This document shows positions 22,422 through 56,717 of a stretch of 64,000 bases of DNA, piece by piece. Source of the DNA: Lota lota (lineage: Eukaryota; Chordata; Actinopteri; Gadiformes; Lotidae). Below the pieces are notes generated by a model. That model searched no databases and was not told where the DNA came from. It was given only the letters and a program-made list of their open reading frames with translations. Within the stretch, counting starts at the first letter, position 1, and each line of letters starts with the position of its first letter. Position numbers and translations under genes: made by a program. The stretch lies in the NCBI GenBank assembly GCA_026745465.1, contig JACYXH010000216.1:7037501-7101500 (forward strand), in the 5' to 3' direction.

Positions 22422-24129
22422 ATGGCAGCGTGTGGGCTCTTTCGCTGCCTGTCTTCCAACTTTTTATCCGTGTTACCTTCGATTGCACCTTCGGTTCAAC
22501 ACAATCCACGACTACTTACATCTATATCGTATTTTCAACGTGCTCTCGCCACATCTAGCCGGCTGTCTGCAGGTATTTGCTCGGGACATTATTGCGAAAA
22601 GGCTAGTCATGTAGCAGCACTAGCTAAGGGAAATGACACTGGAGTCACCGCTGCGGGACGAATAGTTGCTTACATATTTCGTGGGAGCAGTATCCCTAAA
22701 CTACATTGTACATTGTCTGAACAATATTCACTGAAATCATAACCGAGTTGTGTTTTTGTAAACTGACGTTATGTTATCCTTCAGCGCTGAAATTCACAGA
22801 CAAGCACGAATGGATCAGAGTAGAAGAGAATGGGTTAGGAACCGTCGGAATCAGTAACTTTGCACAGGTACTATTCTTCAATGCATCCCTGCAAACGCCC
22901 TGGTCAACACACACAGTGTGCACACAGGAGATGACTATGTTGTTACATTTGCAGGAGGCTCTCGGAGATGTAGTTTACTGTGGACTACCCGAGGTGGGCG
23001 CCAAGCTGGCTCAACAAGGTGGGAAGACGTCAATAGAGATCGTTTGATAATTGAATACAAGTTGTACTAGTATGACATGTTATCGATCTCCTAATAACAT
23101 GGGACATTTAACAATTTGTGCAAAAATGTTAATGTCATGAGCGGCGCCATTCTCAAATTCCTTCAACATATTTGTCTAATAGCCAGTAATGTAAAGAGGA
23201 CAAAGTGCTAATTTGTTATCTTCATGCTGTGCAACTGGATGCAATGTTTGAGTGTGATATTATTTTTACATTTTAACAGTTCCGACCAAGTAATATTGAT
23301 TTGACAAGAGGCATTCCATTCACTTTGGTACTCGGCCTGCAACCTCGTAACTACGACAGAATCACAGCCGTGCTGATGTTCAGTATAACAGCACTCCCTC
23401 GCGTGTGATATTGCTTAATTGTTATTTGTTGACGGATCTAGTATACAATAATGTAATGTACCCTAACGTCCAAACGAAGACCTGCAGTTTGTAACCACTT
23501 CTCTCTTATCTCAGATGAGTTTGGTGCCCTTGAAAGTGTGAAGGCAGCCAGTGAGCTGTACTCTCCTCTAACCGGAGAAGTTGTAGCGATAAACACACTG
23601 CTGGCTGATAAGCCCGGTCTGGTCAACAAGTCCTGCTACACAGATGGTAAGAGAATGCAATTTCACTTGCCTAAACACAGGGAAAAGTATAATTTGTGGT
23701 TTAAGTATTATAGTCTCTAATCTATTGGGACACCGAACCCATAAAACCTGTACTACAAAATGTAACATTTGATTCAAAGAAGACTTCAGCTTGACCCTGC
23801 TGTAAAAAGCAGGAACATTACAGTAGATGGCACAAGCACAATGAAAAAAGTATTTATTTTATAAAAAAATTACTAGTTCAGCTGCACATGCTTTGTGTGT
23901 CCCATCTTTCCCATGAAAGCTTTATATCCTGTACAGTTCATATTTGTTATCTTGTATTTCTGCCCCTTACACCACAGCAAATGTGAAAGCTTACCTGGCA
24001 ATTAAACTATCTTATTCTGATTTCTCTCCAGGTTGGCTTATGAAGATGTCCATTGACAACCCTGCTGAGCTGGATGCTCTCATGGACGAGAAGGCATACG
24101 AGAGGTACATCCGCTCCATCGAGGACTGA
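22422..24129 (+). CDS. gcsh: Glycine cleavage system H protein, mitochondrial
   Basis: Five exons are visible: 22422-22572, 22785-22867, 22955-23018, 23515-23646 and 24032-24129 (TGA). All junctions are GT-AG, phases agree, and the product is 175 residues against 173 in human. Residues 1 to about 48 form a transit peptide rich in Arg, Ser and Leu and lacking acidic residues. The mature part starts near [11 protein letters not shown] and holds the lipoyl motif [17 protein letters not shown], with the lipoylated Lys at position 109 (human 107), and the conserved end [18 protein letters not shown]. The H protein carries the aminomethyl group on its lipoyl arm between the P, T and L proteins in the mitochondrial matrix, and also serves in lipoic acid transfer. 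The ATG at 22422 is preferred because it opens the transit peptide in AAAAAATGG context. No defect is seen. Confidence 0.96.
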
Positions 24130-25180
24130 TCTCAATCTTCCTGACTGGTCCCACACAACCACACCTTTTCCTCTTTACCACCGTTGGGAGGGGGCATGCA
24201 TATATACCCATGGCAGAGCGTCTACCATTCTACAGTGGAACGGTTAAAGTAAAATACTCTCAGATACAGTGTTAATGACCGATTTTTACATCACTCTGTC
24301 AACCTTTTATTGGACTGGGCTCATTTCAATTGTGCAAACAGGGAAGATGTAGTGTTTGTCGGCCCTGTGGTCTCAAACCCCCCAACCTGAAGAGAGTTTT
24401 GTACTCCGTTTCGTTACTAAAGCATTTCAAGTAAGTTAAAGAATGAATTACCCTTGTAGGGGTTGAGCCTTGTTGAGCACTATCATGAAGAATAAGCACT
24501 GATGTAATGAAGACCTTGTTGGTAACGGACATGTTAGGTAGAAGGTTGAATTAAAAACAGAACATTTAAATATTTTGTTTTTATCTATGATCTCCATCAC
24601 TGTTATGAAGTTGTCTGCCTTTGCCACATAACCACGATCAAGAATTTACAGTTGTGTGCACATTATCTGTGTCCACTGCAGCGACTGAGGTTACGATCAA
24701 TGGCATGTAAAAAAATATCCACAATTTTCAGATGAATGAGTGAAAAGATGAATAAATACACAATTAATTTAATCTTTCTGTCCATGGAAAATTTGTACTG
24801 CACCAATTATCTTAAGTTTTTCAATAACGTCACCCTGGTTCAGATGACAAATAATTTAAAGCTAAGTCTATTTTGAAGTAAGATGAGGACATGAAGAAAA
24901 ATGTATGTATTGGGTTAAGGCCTAATGGCAAGAGAATGGCAAGAGAATGGCCAATCTGTTCAACTCCCTTACTTTGATCCCATCCATCAACTGTCTGGTG
25001 GATATCTTATTTAACTGTAGTCATTTGGCAGACGCTTTTCAAAGTGACTTGTGAAGTCATACATGTCATTAAGGAGAAGCTATCCAGCTCAAGGATGCCT
25101 GCAGGTAGGGGGTGGGGATCCGAACCCGGTACCTATTCAGCTGGGAGTCGAGCACCTTAGCCACTACAGTAGCCTGCCCC
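24130..25180. other. Convergent 3' ends of gcsh and the photolyase-like gene
   Basis: gcsh polyadenylation signals lie on plus at 24550-24555 (ATTAAA) and 24751-24756 (AATAAA). On minus, possible signals for the photolyase-like gene lie at 24768-24773 (ATTAAA) and 24306-24311 (AATAAA). The two 3' UTRs may therefore overlap. The right end, 25014-25180, is a SINE. No other gene is seen. Confidence 0.5.
25014..25180 (-). mobile_element. tRNA-derived SINE, nearly complete
   Basis: Read on minus, the element begins GGGGCAGGCTACTG, has an A-box-like segment (GTGGCTAAGGTGCTC) and a B box (GGGTTCGGATCCC), and ends in the tail AAAAGCGTCTGCCAAATGA, the teleost SINE/LINE-shared tail. Its 5' edge touches the stop codon of the photolyase-like gene, so it forms the start of that gene's 3' UTR. 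Flanking target duplications are not clear. Confidence 0.75.
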
Positions 25181-28100
25181 CTATCTCTCATGAGTCATCC
25201 CTGAGTTCCCCACGCCGCCTGGCACTACGGGGAACTTGTCCTTGGCCGCGGGAGTTCGCCTGGCTCTTCCACGGTGGGGGGAAGCTCTGGGGAGTCCCTC
25301 TAGTATACGCATATCGCTCTCCAGCCTCTCCCTTCTCTGTGCTCCCTCATTCATCACGCTGGCAGAGAAGTCCCGCTGGTTGAGGAAGGCGATGGTCTCG
25401 TCGTGTCTGCGGCTCACGTAGCCCTTCAGAACGGCGTTGTAGGGGTTAGAAGCAGCGTCCACGTCGGGATCTTCCCATTGGTGCTTGAATTCCATGCGGG
25501 TGATGACGGGCAAGAGGAACTGCTTCCCGCCGGTACATACCTGGTCCCCGCACGCTGAGCCCAAGGCCTCTGAGACCAGACGGGGAGGCAGAGGGACCAG
25601 GTCGCAGCCGGTACGCCTGTCCACATACTCGCAGAACGTTTTCCGAACCAGCGCCACGTCCTGCAGAGATTGGCTCCTCCGCGCTTCTAGATCTGTGACT
25701 ATTCGCTCGGGGTAGGTATGTCCAAAAGCCACACCTATGTTTGGAAAAACAAACAACACACAAAGCACGGATATTTAAGCGCCACACCGATCAAAGCAAT
25801 CCAATTGTCATTTTGGTCCGGTTGGTTTTAACCATTGGAGGGGTAGCCGACCTGCACGCCGCAGCATGGAGGCGGGGCATTGCCAGGGTTTGTGGATGAT
25901 GTCATCAGGCAGCGCTGCAAGTTCAGGACACCATTTCCTGACAAAACTGCCACAGGGGTCACAGGTCAAGGCTGCATCGACCGGGTGCATCACAAAGTTC
26001 CAATGGTCCAGTCCACACATCCCCCCGTTCTGCCACATCATGGCATCGATCGCCACGTCTGCATCCACCAAAGTGTCCTGCACATACAGCAAGTCACGTT
26101 ATTTGTCTTTTAGCCCTCTGTCACAGTTACAGTCTCAAAGGGTTTCACAGGCTCGCATTACTCTGTATTCTCTAATGCTAACCCCTCAACTGAGTAAACC
26201 TTGAGAAGGATCCCTTGTTCTAGGGGTGCAACAAAGACACCACGGCTGTGTTCATATTGGTCCACTTGTGCCATGTATAGTGCACTACTTAGGGTGTCAC
26301 CATTTTGCAGTGTTGTCTGATGTGTGTGACTGTACAAATCTGGTTCCCCACACAGTGCACTACTTAATACCCATTATGCACTGTAAAAAAAAAAAAAGGC
26401 ATACACCTAATGAACACTTATTTCCCAACTACGTATATCCCGTGATACATAGGGTTTTTCAGTGCTATTGGATCCATCCAATAGAGATGGCTCTGCACAC
26501 TGGTTATTTATGCAAATGAGCTGTCACAGTGACCTAATACAAGTCGGCTTGTTTATGCGACCAATACACGGCACGCCCATGGATTTACGGCGCATAATTA
26601 TTGTCCAACGTTTCCATATACCTATTCGCTAAATAGTGTACTATGTAGTGTTAACTATATAGGGCATAGTGAACGAGGGAACAAGTGCCCCAATTCGAAC
26701 ATAAACCAAACGGCTAGATAAACGTATCTGCGTTTGAGAGGGAGAGATAGAGAGAGAGAGAGAGAGTGCCCTACCTGGAACCAGCGGTAGCCCTCTTGCC
26801 AGGGCAGATGCAGGTAAGCTATGAGGAAGGACGCAACCACATGTCTCATGTAGTTGTTTGTCCAGCCGGTCAGCCACAGCTGCCTCATGGCCGCGTCCAC
26901 CAGGGGGTAGCCTGTTCTGCCACGCTGCCACGCCTTCAGGTGGTCACCATCAATGCTCCACCTGAGAGCCTGTGGGGGAGAGGCCAAGGAGCACACACTG
27001 GTGGTCAACCTGAGAACCACACTTCAATATGATATCACTTCTGTTGGCTTTATAGCAGCAAAAAAGGACAGTGCATCAAACAATAAAAGGATACAAATAA
27101 CTATAACAATACAAATGATTATAACTACAACAATATACAAACCTATGTATACAATAATTTTTATAAACTAAAACAATACAAAATCGATTTGGAAAATATG
27201 TATTTGGATGTTTTTACATGATCATCAGAAGATGAACAATTTTCTGATGTAAGAATTTTCATGTAGTGTCTTGGTAATGATTGATTTTATGTACAATACA
27301 TACAAGCGGGTTATAACATTGAGCACTATCTAGTGTGTCTTCTACCGGTCCCTACCTTGTACGCCGGTCGCAGGGACTCCCAGGGAAGGTCAGGGAACAG
27401 TGTTAGCTGCCAGTAAGCCAGATCCCTCCAGGCCAGTTTGCGCTGGAACTTTGGGGGTCTGCACCTTGCCCTTTTGGCATCCCATAATAACCAGCGTGGA
27501 CTGATCTGCCCCCAGTGGAGGTAGGGAGACAGATAACTGGTGTTGGGGGAATCTGCCCGTCCTGACTCTTTCTCATACCTGTACACACCTAGGGAAACAA
27601 CTATTTTTAGATGTGGGAAATGTATGTGACTAAAAACCATGTATTTGTATGTAATTGGATATCTCCCTTCCATTTTATTATGTTTTTTCCCCCTGTTTAC
27701 CATCACCTCATTAGAGCAACGGGGTACACAGCTGTCATCAATGAGGTCTGACTGCAGTGGTTCTCAGTTCTAAAGTTGGAGTCAACATCTTTTGTCGTCT
27801 CAGAAAATCCTCAGGTTTCTATACTGTTTTATTGTGGGCTTATTTAATTATTTATATTGTTTTTGCTAGACCTAGTGGGCGGTCATTGTGTTCCATGGTC
27901 CCCCTTTGGAACTGGTCAGGCCATAGGTCGTAGTGTGCCGTTTGTGTTTGTCAGTGGGTTTTGTTGTTAATTTCCTCTCACTCAATACGTTAACATGTAT
28001 AACACAGGAAACATGGTAGTACCCTGCTTACTACCATAACCAGGTTTCCTAATTGCCATGTAAACACTGAAGCCCAAGGAAGTAACCTGAACAGTGTTTA

Positions 28101-30680
28101 CACATTCAAGACCTACGATGGCACGCAGTTCAACGCACTTTTGCATGTAAACTTACTGATCGAGCATCCCCTTCTGAATTCTGTGTGGGAACGTAAGGGT
28201 AGTATTTAAGAAGAAAACATCTCACCATCTTGGAGAAAGGCCTCTAAACGTGCGTGAGCACCTCGCTCGCTGAAATCCCATGAAGTACGGATGTTGGCCG
28301 CCCAGTCAATCTGTATACACAATACATACACATGTATTAGTCTAATGCCAATACAAGTTGTTAGTTACTGTTGGTTACAACACCGCCATGGTTACTGACC
28401 ACAGTGCCATCCTTCCTGCGAGGCATGCACGCCAGACCAAGCGCATCAAGGGGGGCACCCGGGGGCCAGTGGGAAGGGGTCGGTATGGAAATGGGAGGGT
28501 CAAGGGGAACGCCTAACCCGGTGCCTGGGTTCTGCTTGCAGCAACTGATGAAGTGAGACACTGAACCAATGCCTGAACACACACAAAGAAATGCTTAGGC
28601 GAGTCTAACCTTGGCTGTGTGGTGCTAGCAGCAACATTGAGTACATGAACAGATAAAGAAATCCGCTGTAGCAACACTAGCATGACCATTGGGCTTATAG
28701 CATCACCATCCGAACCAAATTAACCAACCAAATTAACTTTTTACCTACCAGAGTGGAAACATCTGCTTGCCAAGCAATTGTTTTCATATGTAACCCTGAA
28801 TTTGTATTGCCTGCCAGATGGTCAAATCTATCCACGCTTGGCTGATGGCAGGTGTTCATTTTGGATCCTGATCACCATTGAGCTTAGCTTGTGACTGGGT
28901 TTAGAACTACATCAATGGGTTGCTCACAGTAGCTTCAGGGCTTACCTCTTAGCCCGACTCCTTCGGTGCTGACTGAGTGAGGGTCTCGGAGACAGTAAGA
29001 GTGGACCATCCGGCACGCCACGTTGGCTTGCTTCAGCCCGGCCACCGCCTGCTCGTCCCTCTCCTTCAGCCAGGGCTCGTAGAGGGCAGTGGCCAGCACC
29101 GTCCTGGCTCCCGTCACCTCCACCAGGCCCAACAGGGCCTGCAGAGAAGTCCCAGAGTCTGCCTTCAGGAAGACCAGGTGACTGCCTATACGCTCCAGGG
29201 CCACCTGGAGACATGCTAGGGCCTGATGGAGCCAATACTTACCTGTGAGATCAGAGTGGAATCATCCATTTACTTCATTTTCACTATTAACATTCAACTA
29301 CAGCGATCCCCGACAGACGCTCCAACAGTTCTACACATTTATTACTAAATACATACTTATTATTATACATATACATATGAAACGTACATGCCCCTCCAAT
29401 TGCCATGGTAACCCCTGGCCCCTCCTCCTCGGCTGGGTTCCATATGAAAACGGGGATGACCGGCGCGCCGACCTCCAACGAGCCAATCAGAGCCGGGTTG
29501 TCGTGGAGTCTCAGGTCCCGACGGAGCCACAGCAGGACAGGAGGCGTTGCTGAGGGTGAGCGAAACAACCCGACCACCACACGCTGGCCACACCCCTTTC
29601 GTCGCTGCCGCCGGTTTTTGGAGCGTTTGGGCTTCTGCGATTGCTCAGAGCAGGTTCCCTCCTTGTCCAATGGGTCGTCGACCTCGTCATTAACGTCATC
29701 CTCATGGTTGTTACTTTTGTGGAAGGTGGGAGACGCAAGGTGACTGGAGATGCACTGTTTGTGTCTATTTGTCTGCGACGTGGATGAGTGTGTCCGTGTG
29801 GTTGTGGGAAGCAGGGTAAGGTCTCTGGAGGTGTGTGTAAGTGGGGAGCTAGACGGTTCCCCAGACCCTGTCTTTAGTAGGTTTTTGCTGGGTCTGCTTA
29901 GTCTCCCACCTGCTGCTGATGAATGTGCATAGCGGAAACCAGGGACAGTGGTGGTTTTAGACTTGGTGGCACCACACGGAATTGAACCTCCAACCTTGCT
30001 TTGGTACCCTCCCTGCAGTACGGGAGGTCTGGACTCATGGCTGCAAGCGGGCTTCTCCTGGGTCTTTACATCAAGTAGAGAGAGTGCCAAAGCAACTTCT
30101 AGTTCATCTTCTTCCTCCTGTTGGTCAACAACACAGAAGACAGACAATTCTCATAGCAAACCGTGTCAATATTCAGGAAATACAGAACTAAGGATTAGCC
30201 AAATATGTAAAACATGCTTATGTACACACACTACTACATACATTACTCCAAAAATGTTCTATATTTTTTACTTTGGTGTGTAGATGGCTGACGCACACCC
30301 TTATTTGCATATTAAGGTCGAACGACGATAGTAAACATAACACGTCTCCACCCATCGGGATAGGAGCAATTTATAATACAACTTGTAACCTGTAGGGAAA
30401 AACTGTCGGGTCAGTGACATGCAAACACGCACACAGGCAGCCGAATACCGTAGACACTTACTTTTGAGAAGTATTCCACATAAATTGAGATGAGCGTGGA
30501 GTGTAGAGAGGGGTCCACAGTGGCCAGAGGTTGAATGAGGGATGGAAAGACCGAACGGGTTTCGCTGTGTCCCATGGCAGATACACAAATACCGAAGAAG
30601 CCTGCCGGATCCTCTCCACCTAACACCAGTTTTTCTAACGTGTTACTTAAAAAGGTTATGTTATCGGCAGCACCGGCCAT
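25181..30680 (-). CDS. Photolyase/cryptochrome-family protein with a UIM-bearing N-terminal extension
   Basis: Nine exons on minus: 30680-30462, 30117-29388, 29242-28946, 28572-28400, 28310-28226, 27588-27356, 26969-26775, 26077-25852 and 25734-25181 (TAG). All junctions are GT-AG and phases agree, giving 903 residues. Residues 1-73 (exon 1) are an unrecognised domain. Residues 74-89, EEEDELEVALALSLLD, fit a ubiquitin-interacting motif. A Ser/Thr-rich linker ends in a basic NLS-like run near 250. The photolyase alpha/beta domain starts near 273 (LLWLRRDLRLHDNPAL). The FAD-binding domain spans about 475-760, with SYLSPYLHWGQIS (519-531), TGYPLVDAAMRQLW (598-611) and WQNGG (659-663). The Trp triad appears kept as W583, W636 and W659. 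D655 sits where photolyases have Asn and plant cryptochromes have Asp. A tail of about 140 residues follows. It does not read like vertebrate CRY1/2, 6-4 photolyase or CRY-DASH. It probably binds FAD; whether it repairs DNA or signals is open. Confidence 0.9.
26215..26700. mobile_element. Degenerate teleost interspersed repeat in an intron of the photolyase-like gene
   Basis: Two blocks, about 26215-26395 and 26600-26700, contain recurring TAGTGCACTACTTA-like and TAGTGTACTATGTAG-like motifs. Such motifs are common in nonautonomous DNA elements of fish. Ends and target duplications could not be fixed; the family is not assigned. Confidence 0.35.
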
Positions 30681-31560
30681 TGTCCGTTTAACGTTGATGG
30701 TCCCGTCTAGGAAGACGTTTTCATCTTGTAATGAATTAACTGTTGATATAGAACAATGTCACGATCATTGAGTGAGCTCAAGTCAGAAATAGTTGCTGGT
30801 TACCAAACAGCTGATCAAGGGGGTTACACAAGCCACGAGTGAACGTTTTGTAACCGGTCAAGACTCGGGTGTTGTAATACCTCCTTGTCGCCAGTAAGTG
30901 GAGCACAAGTCCCATCAAGATGGGAAGAAAGGAATTGGAACCCATGCAGCTACAGTGATTTTTATTTGAATGTATTCCTAATGATGATAGGAATGATGTC
31001 GTTTTGCATGTGAAGCCCGTTTTCAGAAATGATATTAATAATTTTAACAGTGCTTTACTAATGACTCGTCATAGGATTTAAACGTAATTTACTTTTTGGA
31101 GGATTTGCATAAAACAGATAATGGAATGTGACAGCATCTTCGGTCCTAAGCACACTTCATAAACTCCGTGTCGAGTAGATAGTAATCATCCTAGCATCCT
31201 GCACAGGGAAAAATCTATTGTAATAATTTTACCTCAACATATAATTACAAAATACACATGACGGTAATCTTTATAATGCTGTCTGAAAAGTAAGTGTTGT
31301 ATATAAGTCATGATGTGACGATAGCTGTGGTACGCGGGTAGAATGGAGGGTGGAGAAAGAAAGGTAGAGTGAGAGAGAGCGAGAGAGAGAGGGAATCAAT
31401 AGTGTTTAGACAGAGAAGTGGAGTCTAAGTGTGTGATCAATAGAGAGCAGAGAGGAGAGATTAGCTGCTTTTCTCTCTCAAACTAACGCTGACAAATTGG
31501 TGAATTGGTGTATCGGCCCTTGGGCTAAATGGATTGACCTGCTGTTTCCATGTTCTACCG
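30681..31560. other. Upstream flank of the photolyase-like gene
   Basis: This stretch holds no reading frame I can support. It should contain the 5' UTR and promoter of the minus-strand photolyase-like gene. I see no TATA box and no clear D-box or E-box cluster of the kind found in light-induced fish repair genes. Confidence 0.3.
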
Positions 31561-32396
31561 TGTACTGTCAATAAAGATCGGTGTTCAACGTGGCTCTCAA
31601 TGAAGGGTGTGAGTGAGGCAAAGCCACGCGGGGAGGGAGAGAAAAATGAGGAAGAAAAATGGAGGAAGTATAGGAAGCTATGTTGCAGCGATGTTGCAGG
31701 CAGGCAGGCAGGCTGCTTCTCAGGTGGTCAGAGTTGTGTGTTTGTTTGTCCAAAACACCACCACAGCCAGCGATGTCTCATTAACACGCACGTGCGCTGT
31801 AACGGCAGCCTCGTGCACGGCGTTATGAAAAAAAAACATAATAACATCTCGAGCAAAATGAATGGAAAGACAGATTAAAAACTAAGTGGGAAGAAACGGG
31901 GCGCTGCTATAGCTATTTGCAACTCATAAATCATTCTGACACGCCCACGCACATATAGACACGGCATATGCTCACACACTTGCGTGGACACACACACGTA
32001 CACACGCTTGCATAAACACGCACACATATATGCACACACACGCACACGTACTGTAATTAACCACAGGCTATTTACTGGCTCCTGCTGTAAATTAGACATG
32101 CAGACAGAGTTATTACATTAGGGGGATCTGCCATGCAGAATACCAACAGAAGAGGTGGGGGGAGTGTGTGCACAACAACCACCTCCTTCTAACACAAACA
32201 AAATATAACACACATACACCCACAAACACACACGCACTGAAACACGGAAAAGACACACGGAAAAACAAGAAAGAAGAAAGAAGATATAGGAGGAATCATA
32301 GTGTTACGCCACCAATGAAAAGGAAGCTCCTTCCGAGAGAATAGGGGCCCCCAGCTCTTTGTTCCCTGCTGCATTTCATTATCTGTAACACCAGCC

Positions 32397-32397
<1 letters not shown>

Positions 32398-32465
<68 letters not shown>
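32398..32465. repeat. CA microsatellite
   Basis: About 33 CA units. Confidence 0.9.
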
Positions 32466-32472
<7 letters not shown>

Positions 32473-33033
32473 CACCCACACTTGCACCTCCCCCTTCCCT
32501 AAAGCTGTCTGCCTGTGCTCCTCCTGACTCGCAGCAGCAGAGGAGGAGAGGGGAGGAAATAAAGACATTGTCACTGCCACCGCTACTCCCTCATGGCCGC
32601 CATGTATGCACTGAAGCGGGATTTTAAGACGCTGTCAGACTTGCCACCTACCCCCTCGGGCTTGAGTTTCACGGGCTGGCCTGGGGAGCGGTAGGGACCG
32701 GTCACTCGGACTGGATGGGAAGCAGGGTAGCCTCCCCTCACATTCAGTGTCGAGCCGAATATTAGAGAATGAGTTGAGTTGAATGAGGCAAATATTGAGC
32801 TGTTGTCTTCAGTGGCTGGCCGTTTTTATACTGCATTGTTTGACCAGTGTGTGTGTGTGGGTGTGGTTGTGGGTGTGGGTGTGTGGTTCCGTCCTCTGGC
32901 TTCCGTCTGCCTCTCTCTCGTTCGGCCCTCTCCGTTCCTCTCTGTTTTCCCACGGTGATCGATAGCTCATTACAATCATTGACTGTGGCTCATCAGCACC
33001 TGTTTAGTCCAGAGACAGAGTGGGAGAGCGGGA

Positions 33034-43801: not shown

Positions 43802-55733
<11,932 letters not shown>

Positions 55734-56717
55734 GCCACAGGCTACAGCAGCCACACATCACTACCACACCTAGTGGGGGGCGGAGGAAAGGGGGGCAGGG
55801 AGAGAGAAAAAAAGGAGAAAACAAAATGTATAAGGTAAATATTATTGCATAACAATGTGTGCCATTGATTCCGGTCCCTGGATAGCATCTGTTCAATACA
55901 GCCTTCACAGTGTATAACACAGCCCGGTTACTCAAGGGTTAGCTTTAGCCCTTAATGAGAAAATCAATAATACGAGCGCTAAACTCGGTAGAGGAATGCA
56001 GGGTAAAGCCTATGTAGGGGGTCCATAATATTCCTTAGGGGTTAGAATTATATAAAGAACTAAATTCTTCTAAACTAAAGGCCTTTGTCTAAATTGGCTC
56101 AGTTAGATAAAAGACGATTGAAGAACACTGAAGCCATGTTATAGGTCTGCTGGAATGGAATTGCACATCAGTGCAGTGCTGAGATACTGTTTAATGGAAA
56201 ATATATTGCAGCTCCATTATAACACATTATTTTACACTGTAAACAATACAAGTTGACTAAGCCTATTTTTGAAAGGAATCATTTAAATCTATGACTAGCT
56301 ATTATTATCAAAATAATAAACATCGAATGTAAAGGAAAACGCTGAGAAAAAATATTATTATTGGTTTTAATTAAATATGTCCGGTCTGTTGGAGTCATGG
56401 TCTAAATTATCAGCCAGTCTTAATATACTTCAGATTTGGGGAAATCAAATCACCACAAAACATACGGATGTTCTGGCTTTGCACATGATTTTTCTAGGTT
56501 CCATCCTAGAGGGCTTCGTCAACAATGGGTTCCCATATTAAATGGGCCTGTCACTGGCCCTGCCATGTCACTAGATTGATGTATGGCAGATTAGAAGAAG
56601 ACTGCTCCTTATCTCCCTCTCTCTGGCCTACACTCTCATTACTGACCCCTTTTTTTTTTAATCAAGGAAAGACCTTAATGTACCATTTCACCTTCTCCTC
56701 ACACCCCCCTCTTCTTC

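Follow-up and report, generated by a model that had tools for sequence, protein, structure and literature searches.

A stretch of 64,000 nucleotides from the Lota lota genome (hereafter the window) raises the question of whether a photolyase/cryptochrome and a ubiquitin-interacting motif (UIM) can belong to one and the same protein and, if so, which protein this is. An initial annotation, made from the sequence alone, had joined a UIM to a photolyase homology region by in-phase splicing and implied that such a combination was new. Our analysis indicates that the gene is very probably the fish orthologue of cryptochrome 6 (CRY6, or PCRY-like), with its UIM. The combination is real but was already published for the CRY6 family in 2023 (PMC11520951); the implied novelty fails because CRY6 was missing from the proteins used for comparison, which were CRY1/2, 6-4, CPD and DASH proteins. 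The earlier observation can now be assigned to a known vertebrate protein, for which ubiquitin binding was measured with the frog version, and another fish contributes an intact CRY6 gene model.

Architecture of the predicted gene

An intact gene of nine exons is predicted on the minus strand of the window (30680-25181; Table 1). After splicing, the exons form a single open frame of 903 residues that ends with TAG at 25183-25181, and GT-AG borders are found at all eight predicted introns. The donors match 6 to 8 of the 9 consensus positions; the two lowest-scoring ones (6/9 each), those of exon 4 (28400, GTG/GTCAGT) and exon 8 (25852, CAG/GTCGGC), are backed by phase and domain alignment. The splice borders were picked by eye from the strand translation, for phase match and domain continuity, and because they were chosen to make the phases agree, the phase agreement of the exons is not independent evidence. 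Exon 3 has a single match in the species' own assembly (575 Mb, 867 contigs).

Table 1 Features of the predicted CRY6 gene within the window
Feature	Position	Strand	Description
Exon 1	30462..30680	-	Residues 1-73, phase 0; N-terminal helical domain; ATG context ACAATGG; donor AAA/GTAAGT
Exon 2	29388..30117	-	Residues 74-316, codon 317 split; UIM, linker, basic cluster, start of photolyase domain
UIM EEEDELEVALALSLLD	30070..30117	-	Residues 74-89, start of exon 2; inverted-UIM pattern fits 78-89
Basic cluster KPKRSKNRRQRRKG	29593..29634	-	Residues 235-248, by composition
Exon 3	28946..29242	-	Photolyase alpha/beta domain; VGLR (412-415)
Exon 4	28400..28572	-	Predicted splice borders
Exon 5	28226..28310	-	5-6 junction matched by Fugu Cry6 primer
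Exon 6	27356..27588	-	WRDLAY (555-560), K552, W555
Exon 7	26775..26969	-	FAD-binding domain; W583, N618, H622, W636
Exon 8	25852..26077	-	FAD-binding domain; D655, MWQNGG (658-663), W659, N661
Exon 9	25181..25734	-	End of photolyase domain and C-terminal extension; stop TAG

Identity as cryptochrome 6

The spliced protein matches Pfam DNA_photolyase over residues 267-410 (2.8e-28) and FAD_binding_7 over residues 549-744 (9.7e-65). All three motifs that characterise PCRY-like proteins in passages of a survey of this subfamily (PMC9498864) are present, namely VGLR at 412, WRDLAY at 555 and MWQNGG, a form of MWQNxG, at 658; the same passages place MWQNxG in 100/103 PCRY-like sequences and in 0/2144 others. 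They also describe PCRY-like proteins of fish and state that a fish possessing PCRY-like usually possesses CRY-DASH as well. The genome studied here resembles that description in having a DASH-like exon of 57 aa, which finds crypto_DASH as its best NCBIfam family (104 bits), remaining below the family cut-off because it is a fragment. The 17 FAD_binding_7 matches in the assembly fall into six places, one of which is the CRY6 gene. The protein described here carries a UIM, and the word 'UIM' has 0 occurrences in the main text of PMC9498864.

The best NCBIfam family for the whole protein is that of the plant cryptochromes (TIGR02766), with 274 bits against a cut-off of 603.85. By alignment, the protein shares the flavin Asp and the Trp triad with plant cryptochromes (AtCRY1, 1u3c), and it differs from them by the addition of the N-terminal extension. 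Among PDB sequences, 51 are matched at E <= 0.001; the best is the DNA photolyase 4u63 (276.5 bits), followed by six cryptochrome entries at 224-236 bits, which we take to be plant proteins, and then by entries scoring no more than 155 bits, among them presumably 6-4 photolyases and animal cryptochromes.

Primers designed for another fish gave a comparison at the nucleotide level. Passages of Okano et al. 2017 (PMC5394683) list two primer pairs for Takifugu Cry6, of which the one for qRT-PCR had been verified with cloned cDNA, and report that Fugu Cry6 mRNA is light-induced, with an LL/DD ratio of 4.17. The four primers match the predicted coding sequence at 17/22, 15/19, 18/20 and 19/23 positions, and the two forward and two reverse sites lie in an order consistent with the two amplicons. 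Since 300 shuffles of each primer reach at most 16, 15, 15 and 16 positions, three primers exceed every shuffle and the second only ties. The fourth spans a predicted exon junction (Table 1) and matches at best 15/23 positions on the unspliced minus strand, so that the primers appear to give indirect support for splicing, limited to the exon 5-6 junction.

The relatives named for this family are CRY6 of Xenopus tropicalis, Takifugu rubripes and zebrafish (PMC11520951; passages of PMC5394683). We also considered the 'Cry6' of a 2015 paper and rejected it as the family of this gene; in passages of that paper (PMC4350181) the name denotes a Drosophila-type CRY of invertebrates, said to be lost in chordates, and the name alone is shared.

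The N-terminal extension

The N-terminal extension of Xenopus CRY6 is described as a predicted four-helix domain followed by a double-sided and inverted UIM (DI-UIM) and an NLS/NoLS (Okano et al. 2023, PMC11520951). The protein of Lota lota carries the same kinds of elements in the same order: a helical domain, a UIM that also fits the inverted UIM and an NLS/NoLS-like basic cluster, with a plant-CRY-related photolyase region as in X. tropicalis, and its length is 903 aa as compared with at least 862 residues in XtCRY6. The photolyase match starts only at residue 267, in keeping with the long N-terminal extension (about 200 aa) of this class. The basic cluster sits between the UIM and the photolyase region, and its position and character are like those of the CRY6 NLS/NoLS, making it a candidate for the same element.

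When the product of exon 1 was modelled alone, from its single sequence, it was predicted with a mean pLDDT of 87.5 to form four long helices (residues 4-21, 25-36, 38-49 and 57-72) and a short one of 4 residues (52-55). The model thus predicts a tetrahelical N-terminal domain like that of Xenopus CRY6. The origin of this domain was searched for in several collections: no Pfam family was found at E <= 10, a fold search with the model gave no match at E <= 0.001 and did not reproduce the KaiA/RbsU-like topology of the CRY6 class, which the domain may nevertheless have, and PDB sequences yielded one weak match, VPS18, over residues 48-80 (E 1.4). In the species' own genome the domain matched itself and one other place without significance, and none of these searches found a donor of the domain. 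That other place (C77:300704-300868) is a 120-aa open frame with 36% identity to residues 18-70 (E 1.21); although not significant, it is the sole hint at where a relative of the domain might lie.

The ubiquitin-interacting motif

Across all six reading frames of the window, 64 kb in length, the strict UIM pattern has one match, namely residues 74-89 of the CRY6 protein, in which the acidic run, the hydrophobic residue, the Ala, the Ser and the final acidic stretch are all in register. Shuffling residues 1-240 produced the strict pattern in 13/200,000 cases, and shuffling all 903 residues in 44/200,000. When the inverted-UIM pattern, which was written after the sequence had been seen, was required in addition, the counts fell to 0/200,000 and 2/200,000, respectively. 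Both patterns follow the general consensus for UIMs. The fit that the initial annotation had noticed in these residues is thus borne out by a match that is unique in the window and rare in shuffles.

The profile search that had been suggested at that time gave a weak answer. Against the whole protein, UIM_2 is the only one of the Pfam UIM models that appears (10.4 bits), and a 28-aa peptide around the motif scores 13.3 bits with UIM (PF02809) and 16.9 bits with UIM_2 (PF23625), below the cut-off of 21 in each case; both models see the motif, but neither is passed. The corresponding 28 residues of Xenopus CRY6 pass PF02809 at 22.6 bits, so that of the two cores, EEEDELEVALALSLLD here and ETDLELAIALSLQE in Xenopus, the fish one is the weaker by Pfam. 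In an ungapped comparison of the two peptides, the Leu, Ala and Ser are in register and 8/28 residues are identical, a likeness that is modest, the score being equalled or exceeded by 571/20,000 composition-keeping shuffles. A search of PDB sequences with the fish peptide (E <= 10) returned a 55-residue chain of ZFAND2B as its sole match, a weak one (E 0.22). We assume that this chain is the UIM region of ZFAND2B.

In Xenopus, the CRY6 UIM peptide pulls down K48-linked polyubiquitin, and the UIMs are stated to be conserved in Takifugu and zebrafish CRY6 (PMC11520951). Orthologues lacking the motif would have spoken against the original proposal; the main text of that paper reports it in three species, and conservation as given here rests on this text, the Xenopus peptide being the one orthologue sequence that we compared. 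For the fish motif, ubiquitin binding is putative.

These scores bear directly on the best-surviving alternative, in which the gene is CRY6 with a degenerate UIM: the acidic and hydrophobic helix would have lost any appreciable ubiquitin binding and would serve only to lengthen the helical domain. That the fish peptide stays below both Pfam cut-offs, while its Xenopus counterpart passes one, speaks for this alternative. However, the Leu, the Ala, the Ser and both acidic ends have kept their register, the pattern is very rare in shuffles, and the one PDB sequence that the peptide finds, weakly, is the ZFAND2B chain. We therefore regard a degenerate motif as unlikely and retain CRY6 with its UIM as the preferred reading.

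Flavin site and probable function

In an alignment with 4u63 and AtCRY1, W583, W636 and W659 coincide with Trp residues of AtCRY1 and D655 with an Asp; we take these to be the Trp triad and Asp396 beside the flavin. W555 and N618 are common to CRY6 and 4u63. On the other hand, the Glu, Met and Trp of 4u63, which presumably correspond to residues 274, 345 and 384 of the CPD repair site of E. coli photolyase, are replaced here by K552, H622 and N661, and an Asn of 4u63 by D655. The roles assigned to these residues follow those described for AtCRY1 and for the photolyase of E. coli. The kept Trp triad and plant-type Asp, together with the changes at K552, H622 and N661, favour a photosensor over a CPD repair enzyme.

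Another reading is that of a CPD photolyase recruited by ubiquitin, which would repair DNA where chromatin at sites of damage is ubiquitylated. The nearest solved structure by sequence is indeed a photolyase (4u63), and passages of PMC5394683 group Fugu Cry6 by its light response with Xpc, Neil1 and photolyase genes. The three altered repair-site residues and the Asp in place of Asn at 655 argue against this reading, which we consider very unlikely and have set aside. CRY6 probably does not repair CPD lesions.

As judged from its residues, CRY6 is most likely a flavin photosensor that engages ubiquitylated partners, which the N-terminal extension would bring to the photosensor. The initial annotation had offered a light-sensing or repair flavoprotein that binds ubiquitylated partners; its light-sensing half comes close to what has been suggested for CRY6 (PMC11520951), and its repair half is made less likely by K552, H622 and N661. 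In such a photosensor the flavin would be photoreduced through the Trp triad, and the plant-type Asp would let it form a signalling state. This state might then alter how the N-terminal extension presents the UIM, and CRY6 would bind ubiquitylated partners differently in the light and in the dark. A light-gated ubiquitin receptor of this kind, in which the action of blue light on the flavin would uncover or conceal the UIM and switch the handling of ubiquitylated partners within one polypeptide, perhaps linking light with signalling in the nucleolus or upon DNA damage, is put forward as a tentative idea with a rather small chance of being right. Light control of the UIM, if real, would make CRY6 a vertebrate switch that leads directly from flavin to ubiquitin. 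The authors of PMC11520951 name the binding of a chromophore by CRY6 and its sensitivity to light as future work, and full-length GFP-XtCRY6 in HEK293 cells was cytoplasmic, not nucleolar, so that a nucleolar role is no more than a possibility.

Continuity of the motif and the photolyase region

The UIM-like helix is real and, according to the gene model, shares a single predicted protein with an entire photolyase homology region, as had been proposed: the 903-aa frame contains both DNA_photolyase and FAD_binding_7. Exons 1 and 2 lie where the initial annotation had placed them, with a predicted in-frame junction. Up to residue 420, Met is found at positions 1, 36, 311 and 395. With no Met between 36 and 311 and the photolyase match starting at 267, a start within exon 2 past the UIM would lose the beginning of the domain, and a start in exon 2 after the motif that keeps the whole photolyase region could not, on the predicted sequence, do without an alternative first exon. 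Transcripts starting in exon 2 after the motif, which were named as a possible refutation, have thus found no support so far. It is scarcely conceivable that exon 1 and the motif are absent from the mature protein, through the false joining by chance of two adjacent genes or of an open frame within an intron: borders chosen by eye for matching phase, in a gene model predicted from sequence alone, would allow such an error, but the Met-free interval, the lack of an ATG upstream of the acceptor in the frame of exon 2 and the same layout described for Xenopus CRY6 speak against it.

Promoter region and neighbouring sequences

Although light induction might suggest a D-box, the strict form TTAYGTAA is absent from 30400-32700 (5 matches in the window), a point against the preferred reading, and so is TTAYRTAA; the looser TTAYGTWW has 3 of its 38 window matches there. 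The same region contains one CACGTG site (reported on both strands) and two CACGTT sites. Rfam and ARAGORN searches over the whole window found nothing. For the neighbouring genes, 236 of 383 open frames of at least 60 aa outside CRY6 passed a complexity filter, and 10 frames were run against Pfam.

A dispersed repeat starts just past the CRY6 stop codon (24980-25175, minus strand); of 115 candidate places in the own assembly, 40 were scored and 40/40 match, this one included. It is, we presume from its appearance, a tRNA-derived SINE. On the plus strand, a gene for glycine cleavage H-protein, represented by two fragments (22721-23044 and 23917-24126), converges on the 3' end of CRY6, with GCV_H Pfam matches of 2.5e-11 and of 7.8e-4, the latter below the Pfam cut-off. 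Upstream of CRY6, a zinc-finger homeobox gene is represented by large open frames at 44073-49535 and 53334-55757 on the minus strand, with three homeodomain stretches in one frame, another in 44073-44771 and, by Pfam, a ZFHX3-type zinc finger in 53334-55757.
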